Positions 12,048 through 29,374 of a stretch of 64,000 nucleotides of DNA are shown here, one piece after another. A program made the translations under genes and the position numbers. The DNA comes from Jatrophihabitans telluris (lineage in GTDB: Bacteria; Actinomycetota; Actinomycetes; Mycobacteriales; Jatrophihabitantaceae), in assembly GCF_023516435.1 (NCBI RefSeq), contig NZ_CP097332.1, positions 2,542,001-2,606,000 of the forward strand, in the 5' to 3' direction. Each line of letters starts with the position of its first letter. Position 1 is the stretch's first letter. The notes beneath the pieces were generated by a model that ran no database searches, was not told the DNA's origin, and was given only the letters and a program-made list of their open reading frames with translations.

Positions 12048-12078
12048 AGCGGCCCACCTCCCCCGCCGAGGTCGATTC

Positions 12079-12807: not shown

Positions 12808-12840
12808 ACACCGGTTTTACGCGAGGGTCAGCCGCCGTGT

Positions 12841-13608
12841 TCAGCTGGCCACGAGGCGGTAGCCGTGGTTGCGGATGGTCTCGATGCTGTTGTCGGCCAG
12901 TTTCGCCCGCAACCGTCGCACGTACACATCGACCACGTTCGTGCCCGGATCGAAGTCGACCCCCCAGACGTCGGCCAACAGCTCGGGCCGGGTGCAGATC
13001 TGGCCACGCCGCTGCAGCAGATGCGACATCAGGACGAACTCTCGCTGGGACAGCTCGATAACGCGCCCCTTGACGATCAGGGCGCGACGGTGGGAATCAA
13101 GCTGCACGCTCTCGTTCCAGGCCGGGCGTTGAGGTGGCTCGACCAGTTGCGGTTGTGCGGCTGTCGACATGGGCAGGGCGGAATCGGGGCTGTTTCGAGC
13201 CGCGGGCGCGGACGACACGCTATGCGCCAACGAAAGATGGGCCGGGCGGTCCGCGCGGATCCGCGCGCGCAGCCGGGCCAACAACTCGTCGTTGGCGAAC
13301 GGCTTGGCCAGGAAGTCGATCGCGCCGGCGTCGAGCACGGCTACCCGCCGGTGCACGTCGGTCACCCCCGACACCACCATCACCCGGCTTTCCGGCTTGA
13401 CGGCAATCAACGCGCCGACCACGTGCTCACCGGCCACGTCCGGCAACGACAGTTCGAGCATCACCAGGTCGAAATCGCCGGTGATGGCGATCGCCAGTCC
13501 CTCGGTCCCGGTGCCCACCGCACAGACCTCGTGACCGGCGTCCTGGATCAGCCGTGACAGCAGCCCGCGCAAGGTCGCCTCTTGCTCCACCACGAGAATC
13601 CTGCTCAC
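12841..13608 (-). CDS. Atypical OmpR-family regulator, Glu at phosphoacceptor site
   Basis: A 255-residue receiver/winged-helix protein. The receiver keeps Lys102 (LAKPF) and Ser80, but the phospho-acceptor Asp is replaced by Glu52 (LVMLELSLP), and the acidic pocket reads E8-Q9 instead of D/E-D. The DNA-binding domain is intact (ELSQREFVLMSHLLQRRGQICTRPELL ... DVYVRRLRAKL ... IETIRNHGYRLV). A linker of about 45 residues rich in Ala/Ser/Pro joins the domains. GTG 13608 was chosen because VSRILVVEQE gives the usual receiver start; the frame is open to 13839 but the extension is poor coding. It is first in the operon with a canonical regulator and a kinase. Confidence 0.85.
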   Translation of the reverse strand: MSRILVVEQEATLRGLLSRLIQDAGHEVCAVGTGTEGLAIAITGDFDLVMLELSLPDVAGEHVVGALIAVKPESRVMVVSGVTDVHRRVAVLDAGAIDFLAKPFANDELLARLRARIRADRPAHLSLAHSVSSAPAARNSPDSALPMSTAAQPQLVEPPQRPAWNESVQLDSHRRALIVKGRVIELSQREFVLMSHLLQRRGQICTRPELLADVWGVDFDPGTNVVDVYVRRLRAKLADNSIETIRNHGYRLVAS

Positions 13609-13966
13609 GATAGCCCCCGATTTTCGACTCTCCAACGGGCCTGAAAACGCCCCGCACAGGGGAACTAAACCGGGTGTCCGCAGCGAGCTCAAGGGTTGCC
13701 GGGACTTTGTAACTTCCGCGTACGGCGGACCACCGAGCGAGGCTGGCGTGGTTGGCCCGCAAAAACCCGCGCGGGCAGAATCTCCCTGCGACAAGGGACG
13801 TTTGCCCGAGTTGCCGCGAACAATCGTCGCTGAGGGCAATCGGCTGCGCTCCGAGCGTGAGAGGCGGTCGAAGACCTGCCACGCTGTTTGCCGCGCGCCG
13901 CGGCAGGAGAATCCCTAACGAACAGTAAAGCCTTGACATACACCGTTAACTGTTTTGCCGGGCAGG
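13609..13966. promoter_or_regulatory. Intergenic region before regulator operon
   Basis: 358 bases between the end of the copper-protein operon and the regulator operon, both on the minus strand. A short A/T-rich stretch (13918-13960) contains an imperfect inverted repeat, AACAGTAAA (13921-13929) and TTAACTGTT (13946-13954), with one mismatch per 9-bp arm. This could be a regulator-binding site or contain the regulator-operon promoter. No obvious terminator was seen, so read-through from the upstream operon is possible. Confidence 0.4.
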
Positions 13967-14545
13967 TCAGCGGGCGAAGGAGCCGGTGACGCTGGAACTG
14001 GCCAGCGCCGAGGCCGAGATCGCCGACATCGCCTTGGCGGCGGGTAGGTGCGCTGACAGCGCCAGCCGCGTCCGAAGCGCGTAGACGGTGAATCGGTAGC
14101 GGTTCACGGTTCCGCTGCGAGGGCACGCCCCGACGTAGCCCACAGTTCCGTTGGACGCAGCCGAGACGACCGCACCGCTGGGTAGCGGCGCGGTGCCCAG
14201 GGTCCGCGTCGACGTAGGCAGGTCGGAGACCACCCACTGCAGCCAGGGCGCCGGCGTCACATCGAGATCCTGAAGCACGATGGCCCAGCCTGCTGTGCCG
14301 GCCGGCGCGGCCCCGTGCCAGACGAGTGGTGGCGCGTTACCGGCGCCGGTACACCCGTAGGTCAGCGGGATCATGGATTCGGCCGCGAACGCCGGACTGC
14401 TCAACGTCAGCGGCCCGTGCTCCGCGACGCCTGTGGCGTGATGGGTCGTGCAGCCGGTACCCGCGCCCAGGACAAGCAGGAGCGGCGCCACCGCGGCGAG
14501 CAGGCCATGCTTACCCGCTCGCCTCAGCGATCCGTCCCCAGCCAT
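13967..14545 (-). CDS. YbhB/YbcL-type PEBP-like exported protein
   Basis: A 192-residue protein of the phosphatidylethanolamine-binding/Raf-kinase-inhibitor-like family. Family motifs are visible: MIPLTYGCTGAGNAPPLVW, WAIVLQDLDVTPAPWLQWVV and the late NRYRFTVYAL. The N terminus has an Arg/Lys-rich start and a hydrophobic stretch ending in GAGTGC, which could be a weak lipobox (GTGC is not ideal). It is the last gene of the six-gene copper-protein operon; its ATG overlaps the preceding stop as TGATG. Its role there is unknown; family members bind small ligands or inhibit enzymes. Confidence 0.82.
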   Translation of the reverse strand: MAGDGSLRRAGKHGLLAAVAPLLLVLGAGTGCTTHHATGVAEHGPLTLSSPAFAAESMIPLTYGCTGAGNAPPLVWHGAAPAGTAGWAIVLQDLDVTPAPWLQWVVSDLPTSTRTLGTAPLPSGAVVSAASNGTVGYVGACPRSGTVNRYRFTVYALRTRLALSAHLPAAKAMSAISASALASSSVTGSFAR

Positions 14546-15114
14546 CAGCTCGAGACCTGAACGTGTTTGAGCGTCGCCCCGTCCTTCATGGTGATGCTGA
14601 CGTAATCACCCGTGTGCACAACGCCGCCGGCGTTTCCGTAGACGATGGAGTAGGTGCGACCGTCGGCAGTATCGCCGTGGTGAAAGTGCATCAGGACCGC
14701 GCTCGGCGTGACCCGACCGCTCGTGCCGTCCACCGTGATGGTCGGCAACTGGTTGGAGCCGGCGTCACCGAGGTGGATCTTCTCGGCCTTGTTCAGGTCG
14801 AGGACCTGATACCTGAGCTCCACCCCTCCCCCATCGGCCAGCAGGATGACGCCGGTGTAGCGGATCCCCCAGGACGACTCGATGGCCGGGCTCGCGGGGA
14901 CGGGCGCAGCCGGGTGCGCCACCGAGACCACCGGGGTACTGCGGTGATGCAGCGACAGCCGGGTGCCGACGATGGCGGTTACCAGCACCAGTAACACGAG
15001 GCCGAAGGCCAGCCGGCCTCGCACCGAAGCACTACGGCGTACGCCCGCCGGGGATGAGCCCGGCTCGGCCGGGGCCCGATCCTCCCGATCGAGGTCCTCG
15101 GTGATCGCGGTCAT
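14545..15114 (-). CDS. Membrane-anchored small protein of copper-protein operon
   Basis: A 189-residue protein. A cytoplasmic N-terminal tail of about 35 residues is followed by one membrane segment (LAFGLVLLVLVTAIVG) and an exported domain of about 130 residues with beta-rich character (GIRYTGVILLADGGGVELRYQVL ... VLMHFHHGDTADGRTYSIVYGN). The HFHH motif could bind metal. AGGAAGG lies 7 bases before ATG 15114. The stop overlaps the PEBP-like gene. I do not recognise the family. The position between the oxidase-like genes and PEBP-like gene suggests an accessory or metal-delivery role, which is inference. Confidence 0.75.
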   Translation of the reverse strand: MTAITEDLDREDRAPAEPGSSPAGVRRSASVRGRLAFGLVLLVLVTAIVGTRLSLHHRSTPVVSVAHPAAPVPASPAIESSWGIRYTGVILLADGGGVELRYQVLDLNKAEKIHLGDAGSNQLPTITVDGTSGRVTPSAVLMHFHHGDTADGRTYSIVYGNAGGVVHTGDYVSITMKDGATLKHVQVSS

Positions 15115-15166
15115 GTCAGATCCTTCCTGCTCGAGCATTGGTCGTGCTCCGATCGGCCATGACTGC

Positions 15167-18100
15167 TCAGACCGTCCCGTTGGATACGGCGCTCCAGTTG
15201 CCGGCAGCGTCCACCACCCGGACGTGCACGCTGCCGTGGGGCAGACCGCTGAGGGTGTAGGACTGGATGGCGGCGGAGTTGGCCGGACCCGGGAAGGTGC
15301 CGCTCGAGCCCGTGGCCAGCGTGACCGGATTCGCGTGGCCCTCGCCGGGATCGGCTCCGACGAACCATTCCGCCCCGACCAGCCCGGAGGCCGCCCCGTT
15401 GACCAGCACGTCATGGGCCCTCAGGACGACCGACGGCGTAGTGGCCGTCACCGCCAGACCCGCGGCGTAGGACCCGGCCGGCCCGGTGACGCCGAGGAAC
15501 TGGGTGGCCGTCAGCGACGTGTAGGCGTAAGTCTTCGCGCCGCCAGCAGCCCCTGTGATCACGATCGAGCCGGCCCCGGGGAAGCCCGCGGTAGACGTCA
15601 CCTGCAGCGCGCCGGTCTGGCGGGGTGCCTGCGACGCACCGGCGGTCGTCGTGCTCGCTGTGACGCCGGCGAAGGAGTCCACGGTCGGTGGGGTCTTGTC
15701 CAGGACGAGGTCGGTGGAGCTGAAGGGCCCCCAGTTGCCGGCGATGTCGCGAGCGTGGACCCACACCCGGACCAGGCCGTCCGGCAGGCTCTGCAGCGCC
15801 GACAGCGGCAGGAATGCGTCGGAGGCCTGGGTGGTGCTGACGTTCCACTTACCACCGGCCGGAGTCATCTCCGCACCGCGGCCGTAGACCACACACCCGG
15901 TGGGCAGGTCAGGCGTCTGGCTGGTGCATTGCACCGGATCCTGCACGGTGGTGCCCGGCGCGTGACTGGTGGTGTCCAGGAACGCCTCCGCCAGATCGAT
16001 GTTGGCCCAGGTCGAGGTCGCGGTCGCCTTGACGTTGAACGAGTCGAACAGCCCGAGGTTTCCGCTCGCGGCGGTGAACCCGTTGTTCACGGCCGGGGTG
16101 ATCGTCGGGATACCTGTTTCGGGACCCTTCTTGACCACGGTCAACTTCTGGTACGTCGCGGTGTCGACCGCGGTCGCGGACTGGGAGTACAGCCAGGGGC
16201 TCCACCGGCAGCTGCCCGGCACCGAGCAGGGAGTTCCGTCCGGCCCCTCCTGCGCGCGCACCATCACCCAGAAGCGGGCGCCGTCGCTCACGCCGTTCGG
16301 CAGCTTCGGCGGATTGATGAAGCCGGCGATCGGGAGCAGCGAATCGGGTGTATCCACCGGCAGGTTCGTGACCGTGGCGGCAGAGGTGGCGCACTTGTTC
16401 GCGTCGGCGGCCACCGGCGCGGTCTCGGTGCCGGCGGCCACGACGCAGGCCTGCGCCGCGCTGATCAACCAGCCCGGCAGCGACGAGGTTGCCGTGCCGT
16501 CCACGGCGATGTAGCCGGCTGGGATGACGTCGAGCGCGACGGTGTTACCGGTGCGGAAGACGTGATTACCCGTCACTACGGACGGATCGGCGGTGACCCC
16601 GGTGAACGTGGTGGTGGTCAGGCCGGTGTAGTGGAACTGGCCGAACTCGGTGTCACCGGCGGCTGGGCCGGAGGCGATGGTCATCCCCACAGTGAGCTGG
16701 CAGGCGTCACCGAAGACGGTGCAGTCAGCTGGGAATCCCGCGGTGGACTTCACGTTGAGAGTGCTGGGACCGGCTGCGACGGCGACGTCGTTGGAATCGG
16801 CGGTCACGCTCGTCGAACTGACCGGTCCCTGGGCGGACTGGGTGTTGCCGTTGGTGACAGCCGGGTCGATCGACAGGCCGGAGATCACCGCGTCGCGGCG
16901 AGCCAGCGCAAAGGACGCGCCGATGGCCGGACCGGCAACCCCGTTGGAATCGAGGGCTTGCAGCCACACGGTGTGGTCGCCGAAGACCCGGTCGGGTTCG
17001 GTGCCCAGCAGCTGGGTGAGCAGGTCGGCCGACACGGTGAACGACAGGGACGCGGTGCTGGCTCCAGCCGGGTCGGGTGCGGCTGTGGTGTGCTGCCACA
17101 GGCCGCCGGTTCCGGGCACACCGTCCAGGGCCCACTGCAACGAGGCCACCGTGGGCGTGGCGCCGGCGGCGGTCGGCTGCGCGCTGAAGGTGCCGGTGAC
17201 CGCCAACGTCGGGATCTGGCCGTTGTCGACGTTCGGCGTGCTCGCGCTGAAGGTGGGCGTGACGGTGGCCGCGGTACCGACCGGACCTCGATCGGACGCG
17301 GTGACTCCGTTGATCACGTTGAGATTGCCGTACATGCCGCCCAGCCCGCCCGCCGCTCCGTTGTTCAGGTGCAGGCCGGCGTCGAAGATCGGGTACTGGG
17401 CGTTCTTCGGAGCATCGCCCGGAATGCTGACGAACGCGTCCGAGGTCTCACCGGCGTTGAGGAACTCGGTCGTGTGCGTTTGAGTGCCGGGCAGCAGGTG
17501 AGCATCCCGCGCGGTCTCGGTCTGCGGCACTCCGAGCAGGTTCATGGCGTGCTCGCGCAACCCGAGGTCGGCGTAGCGCAACAACACCGTGTCACCGCGT
17601 GCGGCATCGAACCGAACCGCGTTGATCGTCGGGTCGAAGGCGAGATCGCTCGGGTCCAACGCGGTCTTGCTGGTGTCATAGGCGACGCCGTCGAGGAAGT
17701 AGTTGGTCGGGTGGTAGTTGCCGGTGTCGGTACCGAAGGGGTCGGCGGCGAAGTCGGCGTCGAGCTCGTTGAGCACCACCAGCTTCTCGCGGTCGAAGTA
17801 GTTGTTCGGGTCCTTGTTGGTCACGCAATCGGCGTTGACCGCCGCATCGTAGGCGCAGCGTGCCGAGTTCGAGGCAGTCGGCACGGACGGGCGCACGATG
17901 AGCACGCCGGACATGCCCATCGCCACCTGCCGAGCGCCGCCCGGGGTCAGGCCGGCCTCGTAGATGTAGGTCCCGGGACGAGTGAGGGTAAACGGCCCGG
18001 AGGACGGGTTGGACGGGCCCGTGGAGCCAGGGGCCACCCCGTTCGGGTCAGGGGACCCGATCAGGTCAGGGACGGTGATCGAAACGGTGCCGGCCCGCGG

Positions 18101-19360
18101 GTCCAGCTCGTTGTGCACGGTGAAGGCGAGTCGCTCTCCCTCGGTGGCGACCAGTTCCGGGCCACCCAGGACGGGCTTGTCGGCGTCGGAGGTGGTGAAA
18201 CCCCAGAACGGGATGGTCTTGCGGTCGGCGCCGGTGCCGGCGACCACCGAGCCGTTGCCCTTGGCGAACAGGTCGCACGTGCGCACCCCGGAGGCCAGCG
18301 TGCACGTGACGTCCGGGCCGGCGATCGGCTTGGCCACCGTGATCGCCACCGTGGCGTTCGTGGTCGTCCCCGCGCCGGTGAGCCACAAGGTCGCCGTGTA
18401 GTTGCCCGGAGTGTAATTGTGCGCCGTGGTGCTCAGCGCGATCGTCGGGCTGGTGGCGCTGATCGTGCCGCTGTCATCAGACGTAGTGGCCGAGCAACCA
18501 GCCCGGTCCCCGTAACAGAACTGCCAGCTGTCCCCGGCGGCGACGACGGACTTGGAGCCGTCGAAGGTGACTGGCAGGCTGCCGGAACCGGAGGTGCTGT
18601 CGGCACTCAATACGGCGGTGGGATGCGGGAAGTTGACCGTGGTCGGAGCGGCCGCCGTCGTGGTGGCGCTGGGGCCGACGACGGTCAGGCTGGCCGGGTA
18701 GGTGCCCGGAGCAGCGTAGGTGTGAGAGACGGAGGCGAGGGGATGGCTACCGCCGTTGAGCGTGCCGGACAGGTCGGGCTGGGTCGCCGAGCAGGTGCTG
18801 TTGTCGCCGAAGCAGGCCCACCAGGTATCGCTGTCCGAGGCGGTGGAGCTGGTGCCGTCGAAGACCGCGGTCAGGCCCGTCACCGTGCTGGTCAGGTGCG
18901 CGGTGGCATCGATGGTGACCGTCACCGAGACCGGCGTGCTTGCGGTGATCGCGCCTGCCTGAACCTCGAACAGCACGGCCGAGTAGATGCCTTCGCTGGC
19001 GTACTGGTGGCTCAGGGTCGCGCCGCCGGCAGAGCTTGCGGCCGTCAGATCGACCGCCGTCGATCCGACGTGACTGACGTCGCAGGCGTTGGCCGCCTCG
19101 TCGCCGAAGCACACGTAGCCGGTGTCACCCGATCCGGCCCCGGTCACCGTCGCGGTGAACGTGACGGTGGGGTTACCCGCGATCGCCGACGCGCTGAGGG
19201 TGGCCGCCACGGCCGCCGAGGCCGGGCCTGCGTTCAGCAGCGCGACGATGCTCGCGAGCACCGCCACCGCCGCGATCGCACTGCGGCGCGACCGGCGGCC
19301 GGAGTGGCGTGCGGTACGTGCGAACACGCCGTGGCGCGAACCCTGTGCCGAGTTGCTCAT
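15167..19360 (-). CDS. Large secreted protein: PKD-like repeats plus degenerate cupredoxin
   Basis: A 1397-residue exported protein. The signal peptide (about 1-50) ends near AGPASAA. Three PKD-like domains (about 50-345) each carry a Cys pair (CFGDE..C, CFGDNSTC, CYGDRAGC). A two-domain cupredoxin region follows (about 350-700). It aligns by eye with the two upstream oxidase-like proteins, but where those have HCH or HSH motifs this one reads YEAG (near 467-470) and DAGLHLNN. The C-terminal half holds Ig-like modules, including two copies of an STAGFP ... YT(G/S)LTAT(Q/T)F unit. ATG 19360 lies one base after the preceding stop (TGACATG). It is probably a non-catalytic structural partner. A 1488-codon antisense frame opposite it is a shadow. 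Confidence 0.8.
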   Translation of the reverse strand: MSNSAQGSRHGVFARTARHSGRRSRRSAIAAVAVLASIVALLNAGPASAAVAATLSASAIAGNPTVTFTATVTGAGSGDTGYVCFGDEAANACDVSHVGSTAVDLTAASSAGGATLSHQYASEGIYSAVLFEVQAGAITASTPVSVTVTIDATAHLTSTVTGLTAVFDGTSSTASDSDTWWACFGDNSTCSATQPDLSGTLNGGSHPLASVSHTYAAPGTYPASLTVVGPSATTTAAAPTTVNFPHPTAVLSADSTSGSGSLPVTFDGSKSVVAAGDSWQFCYGDRAGCSATTSDDSGTISATSPTIALSTTAHNYTPGNYTATLWLTGAGTTTNATVAITVAKPIAGPDVTCTLASGVRTCDLFAKGNGSVVAGTGADRKTIPFWGFTTSDADKPVLGGPELVATEGERLAFTVHNELDPRAGTVSITVPDLIGSPDPNGVAPGSTGPSNPSSGPFTLTRPGTYIYEAGLTPGGARQVAMGMSGVLIVRPSVPTASNSARCAYDAAVNADCVTNKDPNNYFDREKLVVLNELDADFAADPFGTDTGNYHPTNYFLDGVAYDTSKTALDPSDLAFDPTINAVRFDAARGDTVLLRYADLGLREHAMNLLGVPQTETARDAHLLPGTQTHTTEFLNAGETSDAFVSIPGDAPKNAQYPIFDAGLHLNNGAAGGLGGMYGNLNVINGVTASDRGPVGTAATVTPTFSASTPNVDNGQIPTLAVTGTFSAQPTAAGATPTVASLQWALDGVPGTGGLWQHTTAAPDPAGASTASLSFTVSADLLTQLLGTEPDRVFGDHTVWLQALDSNGVAGPAIGASFALARRDAVISGLSIDPAVTNGNTQSAQGPVSSTSVTADSNDVAVAAGPSTLNVKSTAGFPADCTVFGDACQLTVGMTIASGPAAGDTEFGQFHYTGLTTTTFTGVTADPSVVTGNHVFRTGNTVALDVIPAGYIAVDGTATSSLPGWLISAAQACVVAAGTETAPVAADANKCATSAATVTNLPVDTPDSLLPIAGFINPPKLPNGVSDGARFWVMVRAQEGPDGTPCSVPGSCRWSPWLYSQSATAVDTATYQKLTVVKKGPETGIPTITPAVNNGFTAASGNLGLFDSFNVKATATSTWANIDLAEAFLDTTSHAPGTTVQDPVQCTSQTPDLPTGCVVYGRGAEMTPAGGKWNVSTTQASDAFLPLSALQSLPDGLVRVWVHARDIAGNWGPFSSTDLVLDKTPPTVDSFAGVTASTTTAGASQAPRQTGALQVTSTAGFPGAGSIVITGAAGGAKTYAYTSLTATQFLGVTGPAGSYAAGLAVTATTPSVVLRAHDVLVNGAASGLVGAEWFVGADPGEGHANPVTLATGSSGTFPGPANSAAIQSYTLSGLPHGSVHVRVVDAAGNWSAVSNGTV

Positions 19361-19361
19361 G

Positions 19362-20957
19362 TCAGTTCCCCGTCGTGCAATTGGCGTGTTGAGCAAAGGA
19401 GTTGGGTGGGTCGATGCGGATCATCGTGAGCATCCCGCCCATGGATGCGCCGTAGTTGGTCGCCTGGAACAGCGCGTGGCTGTGCGCGACCTGATACATC
19501 TCGCCGCACTGGTTGTACTGGGTCACTCCGGTGGCCAGATCACCGTGCTGGCCGAGATAAGGAGTTCCCGACCAGAACTGGCCCTCGGTGCGTGCTTGCT
19601 GGTCCGGGACGACCACCTCGCCGGCACCACCGGAGTTGATGGCGTGGTTCTTCGGATCCCAGTTCGCCTGATCGACCCACGCGAACTCGGTTTCGATCGT
19701 CGCTCCGGGAGGTACCACGATGGAGTACCGGTCGACCGAGGCGTCGGCGGGCAACGCGGCGCTGGTCGTGTTGATCAGCGGGCTGGCGTCGAAGCCGATC
19801 TGTCGCTCGTTGTTGGAGTGCGGATGGAACGGGTAATCGACCGGACCTGAGTTGAGGTAGCGAACCAGGGCCGGTTCAGGGTTGTAGTCCTGGCTCGTCG
19901 GGTCGGTATTGCGCGGCTGGATGTGCACCAGCGCGCCGTAGGGCTGAGACGGCAGGTGCGCGGCGAAGTTCGGCGAGACGGTATCGGGAAAGCTGCGCCC
20001 GTTGATAAAGAAGTACCTCGCCTTGTAAGCCGACATCTCGTAGTCGTACTTACCGGTCTCGGCTGCCTCGTGCAGGGCGGGATCGATTTCGCTGAGCAGG
20101 TGCAGGTATTCCTTTTTCGGGTTGAACTCCGAGAAGCACGCCAGCGGACCGGCCTTGCCACAACTACTTGGGTCGGTGGCCATCCCGGCGGTCGCACCCG
20201 CGTCGTCGTAGACGTGGCTGGAGGGAGTGCACGGCGTCCCGTCCGTGACCGCTGCGCCACTGAGGCAGGGGTTGCCGAGCTTGGGACGGACGATGATCGC
20301 GCCCACGAGTCCCATTTGGACCTGCAGCTCGGGATTGGTGCCCGACTCGTAGAGGAAAGTGCCCGGATGATCGGCCACGAAGCTGTAGGTCACCTTCGTC
20401 TCGGCCGTGCTGTCGGTGACGTTGGGTGCCGAACCGGGGTCTGCGCCGGCCGGGGTCGCCAACGAGTCGGTCGTCGTGGACGGCTCGGACAGCGAGCCGT
20501 TGGCCTTGACCCCGGTCAGGCCCGGGAACTGGATGGAGGTCGGTACCGGCAGGGTGTTGCGCAGGGTGATGGTGACACTGTCGCCCTCGTTCACGCACAG
20601 CACCGGACCCGGATCCTGGTAGGCACCGCTGCCGACGGCATATCCCCACATGTAGATGGAGTTTCCGTCGGGCGTGGTGATGTAGCCGTCCTGCGTGGTC
20701 AGCACGAAACTCGGGTTGGTGGCCAGCGGAGCCTTGGGTGGGTGATAGAAATCGGCCGTCGACCCGGCGGCGCAGACCAGCCCCTCGGCCTGCCCGGGGG
20801 GAGCAGGTGCAGCCGAGGAGCTGGTCGCGAATGGGGTGAAAGAGGCGGCGAGCAGGGCTGCTACCGCGATCGGCAGCTGCCACCGGTACCGTCGGCGGGA
20901 CCGCGAACGCGGACCGACGGCCGATTCCACGGGGTTGAATCTCATCGCGCGCCTCAT
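19362..20957 (-). CDS. Multicopper oxidase-like protein carrying HxH and HSH motifs
   Basis: A 531-residue exported protein with a long Arg-rich N terminus and signal peptide (about 28-50). It has two cupredoxin domains. In the first (about 80-225) the expected copper motif is degenerate: GTFLYESG ... VQMGL. In the second, YPFHPHSNN (His 378 and 380) resembles the first HxH motif and VAHSHALFQATNYG (His 492 and 494, Gln 498) the HSHxxxQ motif of multicopper oxidases. It therefore has the trinuclear-centre half that its upstream neighbour lacks. ATG 20957 overlaps the previous stop as TGATG; ATG 20945, preceded by GAGG, is an alternative. The reducing substrate is unknown. Confidence 0.85.
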   Translation of the reverse strand: MRRAMRFNPVESAVGPRSRSRRRYRWQLPIAVAALLAASFTPFATSSSAAPAPPGQAEGLVCAAGSTADFYHPPKAPLATNPSFVLTTQDGYITTPDGNSIYMWGYAVGSGAYQDPGPVLCVNEGDSVTITLRNTLPVPTSIQFPGLTGVKANGSLSEPSTTTDSLATPAGADPGSAPNVTDSTAETKVTYSFVADHPGTFLYESGTNPELQVQMGLVGAIIVRPKLGNPCLSGAAVTDGTPCTPSSHVYDDAGATAGMATDPSSCGKAGPLACFSEFNPKKEYLHLLSEIDPALHEAAETGKYDYEMSAYKARYFFINGRSFPDTVSPNFAAHLPSQPYGALVHIQPRNTDPTSQDYNPEPALVRYLNSGPVDYPFHPHSNNERQIGFDASPLINTTSAALPADASVDRYSIVVPPGATIETEFAWVDQANWDPKNHAINSGGAGEVVVPDQQARTEGQFWSGTPYLGQHGDLATGVTQYNQCGEMYQVAHSHALFQATNYGASMGGMLTMIRIDPPNSFAQHANCTTGN

Positions 20958-22651
20958 CACTTGGCCTGGTAGAGCTTGCCGGGAAACGTCTGCCGGATGT
21001 CGCTGCCGTCCCGATACTTCACGGCGGCACCGGATCCGATGAAGTTGCTGACCGAGTTGCCCTGCAGATCAAGGGTCTTCGCGTCCGGCCCGCTGGTGAG
21101 CTGGTCCAGCTCGGCCGCGGTGGGACGCTGCAGGCCGCCCGCGGGGTATACGTGCACCTCGGTGCGCATGCCGCCGTAGCCGGCCGTGGTGTCCGGGCCG
21201 TTGAGGTACCCGAACTCCCGGTCGTAAAAGGGGAAAACTGTCTTCTGGGTGACGGCCGGCAGCGGGCCGATCAGCAAGTCACGGCTCTCACCCGGGCCGA
21301 TGTCGACCCGGTTGGTCTGCGTCTGTACGTTCCCGCGCGGCGCATCGGGCACCCGCTGCGGTTTGAGCGGATCGTTCTGGGCGTATTGGTAGTCGGGGTA
21401 GTAGCCGTCGCGTCCGGCGCCCAGGAACTTCGCGTCCTGACCGATGATGGTCATCGGCAGGCCGGGTAGGACCAGCGAGTGCTGCTCGTACCCGAGGTGG
21501 GAGACGCGAACGAGCAGGTACTCCCCCGCCTCGCCCTGGATCAGCGAGGACAGCGGCTGGTAGCGCAGCCGCGTGGCGTCGACGAGCGCGTCTCCCGTTC
21601 CGATCAGCGCGGCATCGGGATCACCCGGCGCGCCGGTGGGATAGTCGCCGGCGTGCGGAGCGATGGTGTCCGGCCACGCGCGCCCGTTCATCAAGCGGAA
21701 GTAGCCGGTGAAGTCGGTCCAATCGGTGTCCTGGATGTGGGCGTCGCCGAAGTGGCCCTGCGGAAAGATCTCCGACAGGTGGATGGAGAACTGCCGGTCG
21801 AACCGACTGCTCTGTTCGTTCGGCGTGGTCGCGTCACCAGCAGTGTCGTAGGCGTAGTTCAGGCCCTTGCGCGGGGCGATGAACACCATCCCGTTCATCC
21901 CCATCTGGACGTGCTCGACGTCCTCGACGTGGCAGTGGTACATGTAGGTCCCGGCGTCGACCGGCAGGTAGCGGTAATGCAAGGACTGGCCTGGCGGCAC
22001 CGACAGCGAGGCGTCGGGTACCCCGTCGAAGTAGGCGATCTGGTTGGCGAAACCGTGGAAGTGGATGGTGTGGCTGTCGAACAGGTCCGGGCGGTTGCCC
22101 ATGCCCAGGTTGAACAAGGTCAGCCGAAGGTCCTGACCGGCCTGGGCATAGATCAAGGGGGCCGAGATCTGCACGTGGTTCTTGACGTTGTCGACGAGGA
22201 AACGACTGGTCGGGGAAAGCTGCGGGTTGTAGGCGGTGACGTTGCGAAAGCCGAAGGCGTAGGTGGTGAAGAGGTCTTTGCGGAGGTCGGTGGTGTGGTT
22301 TCCGTTGGCCGGGGCGAGACTGTCCGGGAAGTACGGGGGCATCGCGTTCGCCCCGACCGGCATGGACACCCAACCGTCGGTACCGGCCAGCGTATAAGCC
22401 TTCACCGGTGGGGTGTTGGCATCCAGCTGAAGCGCCGGGGAGGATTTCCAGTTTCCCCGGCCGAGGGCCAGGACTCCCCCGGCCGCCGCCGCCGACACCA
22501 TCGACTTGATCATCGTGCGGCGTGAGATCCGGATGGAGAAGCGGTTGATCGGTTCACTGCCGGTCACCGCGTCCTGCGGGTCAACGGTCATCGCTGAGTG
22601 CCCTTCCTGCGGTTGCTGCGCTGAGTTGTCCGGAGCTGGGGCGGTACTCAT
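20957..22651 (-). CDS. Multicopper oxidase-like protein carrying HxxHxH and HCH motifs
   Basis: A 564-residue cupredoxin protein with a twin-arginine-type signal (SRRTMIKS, about residues 43-50, then an Ala/Gly-rich hydrophobic stretch). The first cupredoxin domain has H194-x-x-H197-x-H199-G and the type-1 motif H239-C240-H241-x5-H247-x4-M252. The second domain lacks the HxH and HSH motifs, reading HLGYEQH and YDREFGYLNG at those places. ATG 22651 overlaps the giant gene's stop by ATGA. A second start, ATG 22591, has a good ribosome-binding site (AGGAAGGG) and would put the Tat motif nearer the N terminus. It likely works with the next protein. Confidence 0.87.
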   Translation of the reverse strand: MSTAPAPDNSAQQPQEGHSAMTVDPQDAVTGSEPINRFSIRISRRTMIKSMVSAAAAGGVLALGRGNWKSSPALQLDANTPPVKAYTLAGTDGWVSMPVGANAMPPYFPDSLAPANGNHTTDLRKDLFTTYAFGFRNVTAYNPQLSPTSRFLVDNVKNHVQISAPLIYAQAGQDLRLTLFNLGMGNRPDLFDSHTIHFHGFANQIAYFDGVPDASLSVPPGQSLHYRYLPVDAGTYMYHCHVEDVEHVQMGMNGMVFIAPRKGLNYAYDTAGDATTPNEQSSRFDRQFSIHLSEIFPQGHFGDAHIQDTDWTDFTGYFRLMNGRAWPDTIAPHAGDYPTGAPGDPDAALIGTGDALVDATRLRYQPLSSLIQGEAGEYLLVRVSHLGYEQHSLVLPGLPMTIIGQDAKFLGAGRDGYYPDYQYAQNDPLKPQRVPDAPRGNVQTQTNRVDIGPGESRDLLIGPLPAVTQKTVFPFYDREFGYLNGPDTTAGYGGMRTEVHVYPAGGLQRPTAAELDQLTSGPDAKTLDLQGNSVSNFIGSGAAVKYRDGSDIRQTFPGKLYQAK

Positions 22652-25600
22652 ACGCTCGCCGCCCGGTATGCACCGGCGTCGATAACCGGGTGGCCGGCCA
22701 CCGAGCCGCGAGCCGTCCCGTCCAGGTCGGTGCCCGGAGCGAACAGACCGCCTGGGACGACGTACGGCGGTGGCAACGGCACGACCGGCTGGTTGTTGCC
22801 GACGCCGGCCGCCGGCGAGGTCGGGGGAATGTGGTAGTTCCCGATTCCACCCGAGGGCAGATCGATGTTGACGATGGCCGTCACCCGGAATCGGAAGTTG
22901 ATCCGCATGGGCGCGATATCCAGCTGCAGGTCCAACGGGCTGAGGAATCCGACGGCGTTCTTGGAACCGGTCAGGGTCGGTCCGCTGGCCAGCGTCCTGT
23001 TCGTGGCCGACGTGGTGTAGCCCTCAGCGGCGGTCCGCGGCGGGTCGACCAGCGAGTACACCGGGCTCAGCTTGTCCGTGGCGAACGTGTCGGCAACGCC
23101 CATGTCCCAGTAGTTGATCTGGGTGGTGTCGCCAACCTGTCCGATACCGGCCACCGAACTGGTGGACGCGCTCCACGATCCGGCACGATTGTCGTACAGG
23201 ATGTCGTTGGCGATGATCGGGTCGCTCCACAGCTTGGTTCCAGTGGGCAGCGTTTTTTGGAACGGTCCGCTGTTGCGGGCGGTGGAGATACCCGCCGGAG
23301 CCGGCGATCCGTCGCTGGTAACGGCGGTTGCGGTGGTGATGTTCTTCGCGATCGTGTCGTTGATGATCACTACCTGCGCGGTGTCGTCGAGGGCGATACC
23401 ACCACCCTCGTGCGAGGACACGTTGTTGGTGATGCTGTTGTTCTGCACCATCATCAGCGCCTTGCCCGCTTGCAGGAAACGCAGACCGCCGCCGTCGTCG
23501 TTGGCCGCGTTGACCGCGATCACGTTGCCGCTGATCGTCACCGGACCGGCACCCGCGGAAGCCGTGGTGGAGTCCTGGGGTAGCTGACCGGCGATCATGA
23601 TGCCGCCGCCCTCGTCCTGGCTCTGGTTGAATTTGACCACGTTGTGGACGATCTGGTTCGACGGTGCTGGGGCGGAGTCGCTGGCCGCCTTGGGCTGGTA
23701 GCTGAGCACGCCGGTCTGCGGGGCGGGAAGGCGACCCGACAACTGCACCTGGTTCTGGGCCTTGAACGCCTTGATCGTCGCCCCGTTGAGTCCGAAGCCG
23801 GACACTGCCTGTCCCGCGTCGCCGGCCCGGAAGGGTGTAGCTCCGCTCGTGGTGAACACGTCCCCGCTCAGCGTGCCGGTCACGTTCAGCGGTGCGGTGC
23901 TCAGACCGTACTGGCTCATCCCGCCGCCGTACTCGGCCGACTGGTTACCGCAGATCAGGTTGTCGTGCACCTGGTAGCCGCCGGCGTCGTTGAAGATCGC
24001 CATGCCGCCACCGAGGTTGTTTCCGCCGTTGGCCACGATCTGGTTGTTGCCGAACTCGACGTTCCAGTTGTGCTGGCCGTCCAGTTGCGGGGTACCGACC
24101 CGGATCGCCCCGTAGGAACCGGAGTTTCCGTCGATCACGTCGTTGGTGACCTGAGTCCAGTCGTCGTGCCCGTTGAGGAACAGGGCACCTCCCTGGGTGG
24201 CGTCCGCACCGGTTGCCGGTCCGGTCCGCTGACCGGTGTTGGCGTTGACGTTGGCCGGGGTGTTGATGGTCAGCGATGCCTGGATGCCGAGTCCGTCGAG
24301 CACCGGGTGACTGCTGGCGCTGTAGGCCGGTTGGTCGGCCTGGGCGAGCACCGTGACGTTCTGGCCCTCGGTGATCTGCTTGTTGTCCGGGTTGGGCGTC
24401 TTGGGCCACAGTGCCGCGCTGATCGTTTGCCAGACGTCCACCGCGTGCTGGGCGCGCTGGTCCTGTGGTGCGGTGGCCCAGTTGATCGCCGCCGGCGGGC
24501 TGACCGCGGTGTCGGTCAGGCTGAAGTAGTACCGGCCGTCCAGGACGGTTCCGGGGATGCTGATCGCCGGGGTGCTCCCGCTGGCCGGGATGACCCCGCC
24601 TGGGCCGACGCCCTGCACGGTCACCGCGGAGTGCACGATGATCGGTTCGAACCACACGCCGCTGGACGTCGCGCTGTTCACCGGCGACTGCTGGGTGGCG
24701 GCCGCCGGGTAGACCACGATTACGGCGTTGGTTATCTGGCTGCCCTCCTGGGTGTAGGCGAGGGTGTTGTTGTTCGGACGCAGCCAGTAGCCGGCCGCGC
24801 GCTCCAGGGCCTCCTGGATGCTGGGGAATTTGGTCTGGGCCTTCCAGCCGGCGAGGTTGCTTGCCTCGGTGGTGAAGCTGGGATCGACTTGCAGGATCGT
24901 CGGGCTGTAGGCCCTGGTCAGGATGTAGAAGCTGATCCCGTTGATCGTCGTGAGCGGGTTCGGGCCGGCCGTCGAGATCGACAACTGATACTTTCCGCCT
25001 GCCGTGCCTGGTGGCACGGTCAGGTCGATCTCACTGTCGCTCCACCTCGTGACCCAGCCCGTGCCCGAGAGGGTGCCGGCCGGGCTGGTGAGCCGAATGG
25101 AGCCTGGGCTGGCGCCGAAGCCGAGGCCGCGGATGATGACGGCCTTGCTCGGGGGGGTCGCGGCGGTGAGGTCGACGAAGGGGTGGTCGACGGAGAACAG
25201 CTGCGGGGCCGTCAGGGGCACGCCACACTCGGCTGCGGCGGAGAACTTCTGGCCACCGTTGATGAAAGCCAGCGCGCTGCGGGTCGGTGCGGTGTCAGCT
25301 GGGGTGAACACGCCGGGCATGGCCTGGAAGTTGGCGGTGATGGTCTGGAACTGCGGGTTGTAGTTGTAGTTGGGGTGGTCGATGGTGCCCGGGTCGTTGC
25401 CGACGAACCGGTAGACGTTCTGGCAGATGCCGGCCGGAGTGGCGCAGTCGGCGACGTCGGTGGAGGGCATCAGAGCCTCCGCGATGCCGTTGGGGTCGAT
25501 GTTCATCTGGTAGGCCAGGTTGCCGTGCCAGTCGTAGACGCCTTCCGGCGAGTTCGGAATCGGAGCCGCATCGCCGTACTGGGTTTCGCCCTTGTTCGTC

Positions 25601-28600
25601 GACAGATTCGTGTCGTCGAAGTTCTGCACGATGAACGTCGTCGGGATCGGCACATCGGTGTAGAGGTAGAAGTTGGGCGCCACTGACTGGCCGCCGCCGA
25701 CGTGGATCAGGTGCACGTCGCAGGCGTTGCGGGTACGGCCCTGCAGCGGGCTGCCGCCGGCGGACTTGAAGCCGTTGTCGGAGACGTTGACCGTGAAGGT
25801 GGCCCCGGCGCACTGAGGGTCCGGTGAGGGTCCCGCCGTGTTCGGGTCCTCGACCATGGTGGTGGGCGAGTCCCCCCCGGTTGCCGGCAGCGCGACCGGG
25901 GTCTGGGTCGCCGGACCGGCCTGCGGCGGGAAGCTGAAGGCCGGGCAGGTCGCGCCACCGCAGCTGCCAGTGTGGGTGTGGCGGCTGCCGTCGGCGTTGT
26001 ACACCGCGGTCAGATCGGCGTTCTGGGGCACGAACTCGGGAGTCGTGGCATGGTCGGTCAGATCGTTGGAGTACGCCGCCAGGTTCGCACCGGCGAAGTT
26101 GTTCATGCTCGTCTCGTCGGCGACCTTGTAGAGCGGCCGGTCAACGCCCGGGCTGACCTGCGGTAAGACGGTGTCGCCGGGGATGTCGACCTTGGCCAGG
26201 AAGTCGCCCACGGCGGGCGTACCACTGCTGTCTATCGGGGTGAGCGCGAAGTTGCCATCGACCGTCTGCGAGCCGTGGGTGGGGCCGTTGGCGACGTTGG
26301 GGTCCAGCGGCAGGTTGTCGGTACCGAGGCCGAAGTTGACCGCCGAGGCCGGGGCTTCGATACAGGCCTGGGTGTAGTGCCCAGGGTTCGGGCTGGACGG
26401 GTCCACGGTGAGCCCGGGGAGGAAGTCGGTGACCGTAGCGCCACCCGGTTCGGTGCCGAGTACGGTCCCGTCTGCCTGGCGGGTGCCGGAGATGATCTTT
26501 CCGTTGGCGTCGCGAGCAACGCAGCCGGTAGCACGGGCGTAGTGCTCGGACTGGTATGCGTTGACCGTGCCGTCGGGCGGAGTCACGCCCCCGTAGCGAT
26601 CGGTGCTGACGATCTTGCCGGCGCTGTAGACCGTCGAGTAACCGCCGGTCGGACCGGTGGTTCGGTACGAGCCGTCGCAGTTGAGCAGGTAGCCGTTGAA
26701 GCTGACGTTGGGCACGCTCTGGCCGTTGCAGGTCTGCATCGCAGGGTCAGTGGCGCCGGCCCGGATCGGCTGGAACAGTTCGGTCATGACGCCGGGGATT
26801 CCGGGGAAGAAGTCATAGGCCGCCTGGCTGCGCGCCAGGTATCGGTTGCGAACCGCCTCGTAGGACACCGTCGCGACGATGCCGCCGTTGTCGGCGCGGT
26901 TGGCCTGCTTGTTCGGATCACTCTGGGACGTGGTCGAGCCGGCGTACGGTTGCACCGCCCAGTCCAGCCGACCGCATTGTGCGATGACCGGGTTGTACTG
27001 GACGTCGACGGCCGCGGTCAGCGTGGTGTGCTCCTGCGGGTCGTTGCAGGCTTGCCAGGTCACGCCGGTCGTCTTCCAGCGGGTGTTGAACGCCTGGATT
27101 ACGTCGTTGTAGCCCAACGGGTAGGCCTCGGTGAACTCGTAGTTGCCCTGATCGTCGGTGACCGAGGTGTTCTGGCCGCCCTCCTGGGCGTTGTTGGTGC
27201 GATCGAGGTTCTGCACCGTGAACTTCGGCACGCCGGCCTCTCCGGTGTCACACCGTCCGTTGCCGTTGGTGTCGATGCAGATCTTGCCGCTGATCCGGGT
27301 CCACCACTCCAGTAGTGGAACCACTCCGAGGTCGGTGACCTTGCCGTTGGACACCGTCACGTTGAAGGAGTCGAAGATGTAGTCCTGCAGCTGGTCCCAG
27401 ACTGCGACCGAGTAGGAACCGTCCGGCACGCCCTTGATCGTGAAGCTGCCGTCGAGGGCGGCATTGGAGGCCCAGATGGTCTTGTCACCGTTGTTGAGGT
27501 CGGACAGCGTGACCCACGGGTGGTGCACGGGACGGTCGAACTTGTAGCCGGCGGTGCCTGCGTTACCGCCGGTACCCGGCAGACCACCCAGGCCCGGGTA
27601 GTAGGCCGCGGCACCCATGATCTTGCCGGTGATCGACCCGGTGGGCAGCGGTGTGCGTGGCGCCCGCGGAACGGTGTTGCAGGCCGGATCGGACGGCGCA
27701 CGCCAACGGTTAGGGTTGGTCAGTCCGGCGAAGTCGACGGTTCCGAAGGCCGGATTGACCATGCAGCCGGCCCTGACGAAGCCGAACTGGACCTGGGGCA
27801 CCAACTCGCCGCCGACCAGCAATTCCGTGTCGTAGCCGGTGGAGTTGGCCTGCGGCCAGGTGTCGAAGTCGTGGTTGCCCTCCAGCGTGGTGGTCTGAAC
27901 CCAGCAGGCCTGGTCGTTGATGGCGGTGGAGGTCAGCGACGCCTGCGTGGTGCCCAGCACCGGGCAAGTCTGCTGCGGCGGGAGGAGCCTGCCGCTGGCT
28001 GGGTCGACGCCCCCGACCTGATCGGCGATCACCGAGGAGCCGTAACGGTTCGGCGCCATGTTCGGAATCAGGATGTCGCCGTTGGAGTCACTTGTGCACG
28101 AGCCGGTGGCCGGACCATCGACCTCGAAATTACCGCGGACGTGGTGTTTCGGGTCGACGATCGGCCGACCATCCAGACCGAGTTTCACGGTGTAGAACGT
28201 GTCGGTCGGGTCTGGGTGGGAGCGCGTGTAGGCGGGACTGAGCAGGTATGCCGTGCACAGCGGGTTGTTGTAGTAGTCGACGTTGACCGGTCCGTCGTAG
28301 TCGGTCAGGTGGGCGTTGTAGCCCGGCAGCCCGAACTCCGACTGCTCGTCCCACTGGCCGTTGGTGGAGGCCATGTCGCCATAGACCTTGAGCCGGATGT
28401 TGGTCAGCGGGATCGGCAATGGGTTCAGGCTGACCGCGATCGCGCCGCTGGAGGTGACATCCAGGCCGCGGTAGACGCCGTCGGTCACCGAGAAGTGCGC
28501 GCCACCGATCTGGAAGCCGTTGGCGGTGACCGAGACCAGGTACTTTCCGTTGGGCAGACCGCGCCCCTTGCCGGCGACCTGCAAAGGCAGCGCCGTGCTC

Positions 28601-29154
28601 GTGTTCCAATCCGACTGGCTTCCGTCGGACACCACGGGGCTCGAGGTGATGTTGTGGATCGAGGGCCAGTTGCAGGCGGCGGGACTCGGCGAGCCGTCCG
28701 CGGTGATCGGGCTGCTGCCGTCGCTCGGATTGGGGTAGTTGGGATTACCGGCGGGGTTCGTAGAGGTGATCGGATGACACGTCTTGACCTCGGAGGCGAG
28801 CGGGGTCTTGCGGTCCGGGCCGAGCGTCACGCCACCGGTGTTGTCCTTGTTGAGCAGCCACTTGTACGTGGAAACCGGGTCGTTCTTGCTCGGTCCCTGA
28901 CCACCGATGTGCGATCCGGGAAGGATTGAGTCCTCCGCCGCGCGCACACACAACGTCCCGGCGGCCTTGGTCGAGCAGCCCGACAGGTCCAGCGCGGGAT
29001 TGGGGTGTCCGTTGGCCGTCCAGCCGGCGGGCGCGGGCGCGGCGGCCGAGGGACCGGCGGCGTAGGCCAGCATGGGCGCCGCCAGCGCGGCGACGAGCAG
29101 CACGATGCGGATGCGGGCGGTTCGGCGGAAGCTAGGACGACCGGCTCTGAACAT
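22648..29154 (-). CDS. Giant secreted multidomain protein (2168 aa)
   Basis: A 2168-residue exported protein heading the copper-protein operon. The signal peptide is about 1-40 (IRIVLLVAALAAPMLAYAAG). Recognisable parts are an SdrD-B/Cna-B-like module near 615-720 (SGKICIDTNGNGRCDTGEAGVP, a Ca-binding-like D-x-N-x-N-G string), further carboxypeptidase-regulatory-like beta sandwiches, an IPT/TIG domain near 1325-1415 (AVIIRGLGFGASPG), and a right-handed beta-helix near 1640-1945 with repeated Asn-Gly-Gly turns. No sorting signal is seen. ATG 29154 was chosen because GGGGAGT precedes it by 6 bases; the ATG/GTG 21 bases upstream lacks one. Similar large proteins are probably scaffolds or matrix proteins; enzymatic activity is not evident. 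Confidence 0.82.
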   Translation of the reverse strand: MFRAGRPSFRRTARIRIVLLVAALAAPMLAYAAGPSAAAPAPAGWTANGHPNPALDLSGCSTKAAGTLCVRAAEDSILPGSHIGGQGPSKNDPVSTYKWLLNKDNTGGVTLGPDRKTPLASEVKTCHPITSTNPAGNPNYPNPSDGSSPITADGSPSPAACNWPSIHNITSSPVVSDGSQSDWNTSTALPLQVAGKGRGLPNGKYLVSVTANGFQIGGAHFSVTDGVYRGLDVTSSGAIAVSLNPLPIPLTNIRLKVYGDMASTNGQWDEQSEFGLPGYNAHLTDYDGPVNVDYYNNPLCTAYLLSPAYTRSHPDPTDTFYTVKLGLDGRPIVDPKHHVRGNFEVDGPATGSCTSDSNGDILIPNMAPNRYGSSVIADQVGGVDPASGRLLPPQQTCPVLGTTQASLTSTAINDQACWVQTTTLEGNHDFDTWPQANSTGYDTELLVGGELVPQVQFGFVRAGCMVNPAFGTVDFAGLTNPNRWRAPSDPACNTVPRAPRTPLPTGSITGKIMGAAAYYPGLGGLPGTGGNAGTAGYKFDRPVHHPWVTLSDLNNGDKTIWASNAALDGSFTIKGVPDGSYSVAVWDQLQDYIFDSFNVTVSNGKVTDLGVVPLLEWWTRISGKICIDTNGNGRCDTGEAGVPKFTVQNLDRTNNAQEGGQNTSVTDDQGNYEFTEAYPLGYNDVIQAFNTRWKTTGVTWQACNDPQEHTTLTAAVDVQYNPVIAQCGRLDWAVQPYAGSTTSQSDPNKQANRADNGGIVATVSYEAVRNRYLARSQAAYDFFPGIPGVMTELFQPIRAGATDPAMQTCNGQSVPNVSFNGYLLNCDGSYRTTGPTGGYSTVYSAGKIVSTDRYGGVTPPDGTVNAYQSEHYARATGCVARDANGKIISGTRQADGTVLGTEPGGATVTDFLPGLTVDPSSPNPGHYTQACIEAPASAVNFGLGTDNLPLDPNVANGPTHGSQTVDGNFALTPIDSSGTPAVGDFLAKVDIPGDTVLPQVSPGVDRPLYKVADETSMNNFAGANLAAYSNDLTDHATTPEFVPQNADLTAVYNADGSRHTHTGSCGGATCPAFSFPPQAGPATQTPVALPATGGDSPTTMVEDPNTAGPSPDPQCAGATFTVNVSDNGFKSAGGSPLQGRTRNACDVHLIHVGGGQSVAPNFYLYTDVPIPTTFIVQNFDDTNLSTNKGETQYGDAAPIPNSPEGVYDWHGNLAYQMNIDPNGIAEALMPSTDVADCATPAGICQNVYRFVGNDPGTIDHPNYNYNPQFQTITANFQAMPGVFTPADTAPTRSALAFINGGQKFSAAAECGVPLTAPQLFSVDHPFVDLTAATPPSKAVIIRGLGFGASPGSIRLTSPAGTLSGTGWVTRWSDSEIDLTVPPGTAGGKYQLSISTAGPNPLTTINGISFYILTRAYSPTILQVDPSFTTEASNLAGWKAQTKFPSIQEALERAAGYWLRPNNNTLAYTQEGSQITNAVIVVYPAAATQQSPVNSATSSGVWFEPIIVHSAVTVQGVGPGGVIPASGSTPAISIPGTVLDGRYYFSLTDTAVSPPAAINWATAPQDQRAQHAVDVWQTISAALWPKTPNPDNKQITEGQNVTVLAQADQPAYSASSHPVLDGLGIQASLTINTPANVNANTGQRTGPATGADATQGGALFLNGHDDWTQVTNDVIDGNSGSYGAIRVGTPQLDGQHNWNVEFGNNQIVANGGNNLGGGMAIFNDAGGYQVHDNLICGNQSAEYGGGMSQYGLSTAPLNVTGTLSGDVFTTSGATPFRAGDAGQAVSGFGLNGATIKAFKAQNQVQLSGRLPAPQTGVLSYQPKAASDSAPAPSNQIVHNVVKFNQSQDEGGGIMIAGQLPQDSTTASAGAGPVTISGNVIAVNAANDDGGGLRFLQAGKALMMVQNNSITNNVSSHEGGGIALDDTAQVVIINDTIAKNITTATAVTSDGSPAPAGISTARNSGPFQKTLPTGTKLWSDPIIANDILYDNRAGSWSASTSSVAGIGQVGDTTQINYWDMGVADTFATDKLSPVYSLVDPPRTAAEGYTTSATNRTLASGPTLTGSKNAVGFLSPLDLQLDIAPMRINFRFRVTAIVNIDLPSGGIGNYHIPPTSPAAGVGNNQPVVPLPPPYVVPGGLFAPGTDLDGTARGSVAGHPVIDAGAYRAASV

Positions 29155-29374
29155 CGAGGACTCCCCTGTGATCACGCCACGACCTTCGGCGCTGTCGAGC
29201 AGTGAAGCCCCGGGCGGCCTCGTTGCGACACCACTATGAGGAGCCCGTAATCGCAGATGAAACCCCTCTCACCTGATGAGGGTTGGCCGTTGGCGGGATG
29301 ACGGATCCGTCATGCAGGCGAGCAAACCGTCACGTGGACGTTCCGCCGATGGCCGCGGTCGTAGCGTGACCGGC
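29155..29374. promoter_or_regulatory. Divergent promoter region with perfect 16-bp palindrome
   Basis: The region separates the copper-protein operon (leftward) from the CopC-CopD gene (rightward) and should hold both promoters. A perfect palindrome ATGACGGATCCGTCAT lies at 29298-29313. An imperfect hairpin (AACCCCTC / GAGGGTT) lies at about 29263-29285. The minus-strand hexamer CATAGT near 29237 could be a -10 element for the operon. The palindrome may be an operator shared by both directions. Confidence 0.5.

Follow-up and report, generated by a model that had tools for sequence, protein, structure and literature searches.

A multicopper oxidase active site apparently divided between two paralogous cupredoxin proteins, in Jatrophihabitans telluris and across bacterial phyla

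We describe a run of genes in a 64,000-nucleotide stretch of the Jatrophihabitans telluris genome (contig NZ_CP097332.1, positions 2,542,001 to 2,606,000 of the forward strand), which we call the window and from whose first letter all coordinates are counted. Two adjoining genes of this run, A and B, encode cupredoxin proteins of two domains each that hold complementary halves of the copper-ligand set of a multicopper oxidase. It is likely that A and B, together with the product of the next gene, C, form a heteromeric oxidase, probably a ring in the order B-A-C, with one active site at the interface between the first domain of A (A1) and the second domain of B (B2). The heteromeric reading is well supported by the sequences. 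The two genes and their predicted copper ligands are as follows, with the residues of B numbered from the GTG at 20960.

20957..22651, minus strand: gene A, 564 amino acids, ATG start, two-domain cupredoxin protein with the type-1 site and the C/D-type ligands
19362..20957, minus strand: gene B, 531 amino acids from ATG (532 from the GTG at 20960), two-domain cupredoxin protein with the A/B-type ligands in its second domain
22055..22072, minus strand: A H194-T-I-H197-F-H199, predicted type-1 His and one HxH of the trinuclear centre; each His in 83/83 rows
21896..21937, minus strand: A H239-C240-H241-x5-H247-x4-M252, predicted type-1 Cys, His and Met and the second HxH
19818..19826, minus strand: B H379-P-H381, predicted HxH of the trinuclear centre; each His in 77/78 rows, the exception (locus L087) being a mis-assigned open reading frame (ORF)
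19476..19484, minus strand: B H493-S-H495, predicted HxH of the trinuclear centre; 74/74 rows

An earlier sequence-only reading of this DNA had placed both ORFs here with a TGATG overlap, had given A the motifs listed above in its first domain and no HxH pair in its second, and had described B as the mirror image of A, with a degenerate first domain (GTFLYESG) and two HxH motifs in its second. All of this holds; both ORFs lie on the minus strand, and the overlap is exact. That reading had also proposed a search for relatives as a check, and the complementarity of the pair proves to be conserved across phyla.

For A, we aligned 83 rows, consisting of the best 80 of 133 places from one contig scan, the window itself, and two further copies from the same genome (L007 and L008; we denote loci by L numbers). 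H194, H197, H199, H239, C240, H241 and H247 are identical in 83/83 of these rows, and M252 is found in 81/83. Since the identity to the window protein is only 30-45% (44 rows measured), the motif pattern is not a product of chance. At the columns of A that hhalign places opposite the four His of B, by comparison, His occurs in 0/82, 0/80, 0/82 and 1/82 rows.

The 80 rows of B are divided the other way. Wherever a row is correctly assigned and extends to their columns, all four His of B are present; the rows without a letter there are L027 (a broken frame), L087, and L019, L065, L067 and L088 (contig ends). The columns of the lost site in the first domain are themselves mostly kept as non-ligands (S206 and G207 in 78/79 rows each, Q213 in 76/79, P146 in 79/80). 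Position 376, a Tyr in the window, is His in 47 of 78 rows.

The two genes are also coupled. B starts at most 60 bases from the end of A in 79/79 loci, as measured to the first possible start codon and with the wrong ORF counted at L087; where B is missing (L028, L039 and L056), the contig ends. The overlap in the window would favour equal synthesis of A and B, as the sequence-only reading supposed, and the heteromer may be an obligate one. Two apparent fusions were set aside. The ORF of L087, which seemed to join A and B, crosses unknown bases and has the signal peptide of B inside it; it reflects an assembly gap and is therefore dropped as fusion evidence. The long A frame of L079 looks, on reading, like an upstream open stretch. 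In L065, matches to A and to D, the gene upstream of A, lie within one frame.

The family profiles of A and B both align best, and at full length, with 2zwn and 3g5w, which, along with 3gdc, we take from the motif layout of the alignments to be type-C two-domain multicopper oxidases. The HxH and HCH motifs of A align with those of 2zwn and 3g5w, and the four His of B align with their second-domain motifs. Predicted single-chain models of A and B match 2zwn over both domains. Type-C two-domain oxidases are homotrimers whose trinuclear centres each lie between two neighbouring subunits, one giving its first domain and the other its second. Thus the proposal of the sequence-only reading, a heteromeric oxidase, stands in so far as one active site would need both proteins, given the conserved complementarity, the full-length paralogy, and profiles that agree best with homotrimeric enzymes. 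Its scope of two genes was too narrow, and missed the third subunit, C, as well as the conserved flanking genes D and E.

Alternatively, A and B might share no centre at all, A being a protein of electron transfer or copper binding that has a type-1 site, and B one of copper binding or delivery. The type-1 ligand set of A is self-contained, and copper-handling genes lie nearby, as this alternative would have it. A type-1 site alone, however, fails to explain the conservation of H197, H199, H239 and H241 in 83/83 rows, nor does it account for the alignment of the His of both proteins with the first- and second-domain motifs of 2zwn and 3g5w, or for a complementary loss that recurs in the compact pairs described below. 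We consider separate functions for A and B improbable.

The proposed third member of the ring is encoded directly after B.

15167..19360, minus strand: gene C, 1397 amino acids from the ATG at 19360, with a PKD-like N-terminal part, a cupredoxin core and a C-terminal extension
17249..18304, minus strand: two-domain cupredoxin core of C, residues 365-716 in the numbering of a 1409-residue ORF

A Pfam scan finds copper-oxidase domains in A and B, and in C a sub-threshold one only, plus a PKD domain. A profile of the C core recovers the two-domain region in 70 of 71 C rows, including that of the window; the row it missed, L027, had been given a B fragment, and its C match lies further on. The three proteins are paralogues, and hhalign relates A to B (E 8.6e-48) and B to C (E 1.1e-66) in alignments that span all or most of the two domains. 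No conserved copper-ligand set is seen in C, whose commonest His columns are those of H616 (52/68) and T484 (31/68). In some loci (L045, L049, L060, L071, L074, L076, L082, L086 and L134-L136), A and B are followed by a fusion of C with a giant D-type protein; no separate upstream D was matched in the first eight of these, where the search at L049 covered 2 kb upstream only.

A smaller version of the same division is found in other loci. In L093-L097, two adjacent proteins of about 335 residues share out the motifs, one having HxxHxH and HCH in its first domain and the other having the HxH motifs in its second. The gene of the B-like member comes first in 5/5 of these compact pairs, and neither C nor D adjoins them. 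As judged by eye, the B-like member has a start of the twin-arginine translocation (Tat) type and the A-like member no visible signal peptide in 5/5 pairs, as if the compact pair were exported as a complex; of three further pairs that were partly fetched, L115 and L118 fit this rule and L122, with two Sec-like starts, does not. The B-like compact member is present in 12 of 185 genomes from the class of L093's genome, at an E limit of 1e-25. Divided compact pairs were also seen more widely, in L127-L131. A natural chain of 764 residues (L099:572-2866, minus strand) holds both halves, with the type-1 and C/D copper motifs early and the HxH pairs late, and has, on reading, one extra C-terminal cupredoxin-like stretch. 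At L098:1441-3638 (minus strand), both of two neighbouring two-domain proteins carry the type-1 and C/D motif set, a departure from the complementary pattern.

In a tree of 81 two-domain proteins, from which the C protein of L049 had been dropped beforehand for its overlong trimmed core, A, B and C each form one group (support 100/100, 100/99 and 99/97, respectively), and the compact forms fall elsewhere. Holding A together with its compact counterpart A' and the two L098 proteins is not rejected by the approximately unbiased test (p-AU 0.144), and holding B together with B' is weakly rejected (p-AU 0.040); these groups were chosen after the tree had been seen, and the p values serve as a guide only. 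A common origin of the compact form with A may be entertained, and one with B appears somewhat disfavoured.

Several results weigh against the proposed A-B-C oxidase, and the first group of them concerns C. The C family profile has a Thermus laccase as its best match, with no preference for type-C enzymes. In L037 (8284-11326), A and B are followed by about 3 kb with no C match, the sole such locus with room for the gene. No third cupredoxin gene occurs within the flanks fetched around the compact pairs, so that C may not be needed. A and B might therefore share a centre as a dimer or higher oligomer, with C an associated surface protein outside any ring. The single chain of L099, which combines both halves with just one extra cupredoxin-like stretch, is in keeping with such an arrangement, as is the lower conservation of C, whose core has 22-39% identity to that of the window as against 30-45% for A and 34-53% for B. 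On the other side, C is a two-domain paralogue that follows B in 70 of the 79 loci having B; of the nine loci without it, seven have at most 257 bases left and L087 is mis-assigned, leaving only the absence in L037 as real. Moreover, in seven loci (L043, L050, L051, L053, L055, L073 and L084) the C ORF amounts to 326-352 residues, hardly beyond the core, and the A and C distances correlate at 0.895. On balance we think it rather unlikely, though deserving of serious consideration, that C stands outside the ring.

A second group concerns the relation of B to solved proteins. When B is searched as a single sequence, copper nitrite reductases come out on top (E 2.8e-9) and 2zwn follows at 0.0024, and type-C oxidases come first for B only with the family profile. 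Copper nitrite reductases are also among the strong matches of A and C, and 4kns, an entry titled nitrite reductase, scores level with 2zwn against the model of A. The models themselves have modest mean values of the predicted local distance difference test (pLDDT), 71 and 78. A system like the copper nitrite reductases would account for these matches, but such enzymes have one type-2 copper at the place in question, whereas the HxxHxH and HCH of A and the double HxH of B make up the eight-His set of a trinuclear oxidase. Type-C oxidases, moreover, rank first in both family-profile searches, for A and for B. We regard a nitrite reductase-like system as extremely improbable.

The remaining adverse results are of various kinds. 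Column 205 of B (E205 in the window, aligned with H239 of A) is His in 26/79 rows, so the lost site is not wholly lost everywhere. By a crude regular expression, Tat-like starts are found in 36/83 A rows, 8/80 B rows and 3/71 C rows; co-export of the three proteins is therefore not implied. Among the loci examined there is no fusion of A with B, or of A, B and C, within the A/B/C family. Finally, ten neighbours in the window, a scan that took in some of the ORFs, include no cytochrome or SCO1, unlike several proteobacterial clusters, so that the substrate in J. telluris may differ from theirs.

Having weighed these points, we propose the following for the A-B-C oxidase. A and B would be paralogues that arose from a type-C two-domain ancestor and act as subunits of a single secreted multicopper oxidase. 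The duplicates would have specialised, A1 giving the type-1 copper and four His and B2 giving the other four, with a single active centre arising where A1 and B2 meet. The third place is most likely taken by C, which would close the B-A-C ring and itself be free of copper. Electrons would be taken up by the type-1 copper of A and handed on to the trinuclear centre for the reduction of O2; a type-1 site combined with eight trinuclear His points most directly to an oxidase that reduces O2. Anchoring of the complex at the cell surface is probably the task of the giant protein D. As for the electron donor, the context leads us to guess at a metal, either Fe(II) or Mn(II), which might be contained in minerals. 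We put forward tentatively, as quite possible, the wider proposal that the A, B, C heterotrimer corresponds to a ceruloplasmin built from several chains (six domains in a ring, with one centre from two gene products), that this sharing-out of ligands has evolved repeatedly, in A/B/C and in the compact pairs, and that the system is an uncharacterised extracellular oxidase of Fe or Mn minerals present in many phyla.

In the window, A, B and C are flanked by two further members of the gene run and by a divergent gene.

22648..29175, minus strand: gene D, 2175 amino acids, surface-type protein
14545..15138, minus strand: gene E, small protein whose N-terminal part has one hydrophobic stretch; alternative ATG at 15114
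29276..31231, plus strand: CopC-CopD copper-handling gene, divergent, adjoining D

The five genes D, A, B, C and E are packed tightly on the minus strand. D and A overlap by ATGA; 1 base separates the stop of B from the ATG of C, and 28 bases separate the end of C from the first in-frame ATG of E. The Pfam scan of D gives sub-threshold matches to SdrD_B and CarboxypepD_reg and weak beta-helix matches. The N-terminus of A, SRRTMIK, is Tat-like both by eye and by the regular expression. The E protein of the window matches a profile built from 52 E proteins of other loci, with the window's own left out, at E 2.3e-25; the family has a member in 55 loci, mostly directly after C, and the two relatives scanned have no Pfam match. 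The J. telluris genome contains two more D-A-B-C runs, at the two loci already mentioned (L007 and L008). Two response regulators and a histidine kinase lie downstream of the operon (10728-13839, minus strand), for which copper or metal sensing is a possible role.

We tallied phyla over L001-L088, of which 76 loci have a phylum and 12 do not, the latter presumably including L001-L008 from J. telluris itself. The phyla are Pseudomonadota, Chloroflexota, Actinomycetota, Myxococcota, Thermodesulfobacteriota, Nitrospirota, Acidobacteriota and Dormibacterota. The order D-A-B-C-E is found in seven of them (for example L041, L011, L023, L042, L051, L044 and L062), that is, in all but Dormibacterota, whose single contig begins within A. 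A was found in 3/296 sampled genomes of the window's phylum and in 7/41 relatives, with the J. telluris genome counted in both, and B at E <1e-100 was found in 6/229 genomes from the class of L049's genome and 5/201 from the phylum of L011's, including the genomes at the centre of each sample. At a looser limit of 1e-20, B matches number 26 and 22 in the same two samples. Weaker matches to the B profile were not counted as B; those fetched (L093-L099 and L107-L126) comprise whole or partial compact pairs, a single chain, and two-domain enzymes that have the full motif set.

B also occurs in eight records of a plasmid collection, two from Cupriavidus and six from Paraburkholderia, and the laboratory strain Cupriavidus metallidurans CH34 carries the genes (L134). 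In three of these records (L134-L136), A and B are followed by a C-D fusion of about 2700 residues and then by E, with the same division of motifs. All four proteins are annotated as hypothetical in L135, a Paraburkholderia record, where a cytochrome c/periplasmic-binding (Peripla_BP) gene lies three genes beyond E. Among the families found nearby are SCO1 (15 loci), Peripla_BP (12), CopC-CopD (8) and NosL (4), and the presence of SCO1, CopC-CopD and NosL is in keeping with copper loading. Further families among the conserved neighbours include an ABC transporter and a subtilase, besides others. The bin names contain Mn for L010 and L080, and Fe for L060.

The known multicopper oxidases in the literature consulted here are single chains or homotrimers, with a ligand set in each chain. 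If the A-B-C proposal is true, ligands split over paralogues would make for an assembly of a new type, intermediate between the two-domain homotrimers and six-domain proteins such as ceruloplasmin. Such a system may be overlooked or wrongly labelled by searches that expect a single protein to carry all four motifs, as the annotation of the Paraburkholderia record illustrates. In a literature search made up of titles and the openings of abstracts, and with most subscription journals outside it, no split or heteromeric copper oxidase of the A/B kind appeared. The gene cluster has been noticed earlier in one organism and some others; in the literature searched, part of which consisted of excerpts, the divided active site, the copper-free ring subunit and the compact form are without earlier description.

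The sequence-only reading had likened the pair to the MnxG/MofA manganese oxidases (papers are cited here by PMC number). Both, along with OmpB, are large copper oxidases linked to metals, and a split member of the MnxG/MofA family would share with it the build of a large, extracellular, multi-gene copper oxidase system. Likewise, the D motif precedes the A and B motifs in MnxG, judging by primer layout (PMC3039467), and the cytochrome c/periplasmic-binding gene in some proteobacterial clusters recalls the cytochrome carried by mof clusters (PMC5566968). However, bacterial six-domain MnxG-like proteins have their type-1 site in domain 2 and their trinuclear centre between domains 2 and 3 of one chain (PMC3600357), whereas the type-1 site of the window is in the first domain of A and its partner His are in the second domain of B. 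All four motifs of MnxG/MofA lie on one chain of about 1200 residues or more, while here they lie on two proteins; Mnx does have accessory subunits, but MnxG alone is the oxidase chain. The closest solved relatives of A and B are, moreover, two-domain type-C enzymes, and the triplet of Sideroxydans lithotrophicus ES-1 discussed below has been called not homologous to earlier suggested metal oxidoreductases (PMC5566968). As a claim of homology, judged by layout and not by MnxG/MofA sequences, the likeness is not supported, and we hold membership of that family to be very improbable. The 'Ca. Manganitrophaceae', for their part, encode two novel multicopper oxidases each (PMC9040806).

The type-C oxidases resemble the A-B-C system in having two cupredoxin domains per chain (by model for A and B, by sequence profile for C), a type-1 site in the N-terminal domain, which A has and B and C lack, and HxH pairs in the second domain. 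They differ in that each chain of the homotrimer carries a ligand set, which is here split between A and B and absent from C. Ceruloplasmin and other six-domain proteins have six cupredoxin domains and one trinuclear centre, and an A-B-C ring would be their multi-chain counterpart. Ceruloplasmin itself, however, is one chain, with its trinuclear site between domains 1 and 6 and up to three type-1 sites (PMC3600357), whereas the window has three chains, with ligands in A1 and B2.

The cluster of S. lithotrophicus ES-1 is comparable by its description. It encodes, next to one another, a pair of extracellular cupredoxin proteins that bear oxidase motifs and a larger extracellular one that lacks them, together with SCO1/SenC and a predicted cytochrome. 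For this cluster, a higher abundance on magnetite than with Fe(II)-citrate is reported (PMC12016527), and a paper of 2017 had already drawn attention to the triplet (PMC5566968). In Slit_1812-1818, the proteins Slit_1816-1818 correspond in this description, rather than by sequence comparison, to A, B and C of the window and of L134-L136, and small hypothetical proteins are likewise present. The ES-1 cluster includes SCO1/SenC and a cytochrome; the window has separate C and D genes and a CopC-CopD gene beside D. The motifs of the two ES-1 proteins are called canonical or typical, and the excerpts of both papers describe no divided active site (PMC5566968, PMC12016527). The C-D fusion in L049 and L134-L136 fits the description of Slit_1816, and if the A-B-C proposal is true, the magnetite-linked proteins of ES-1 gain a concrete mechanism, in which co-expression should be needed for activity.

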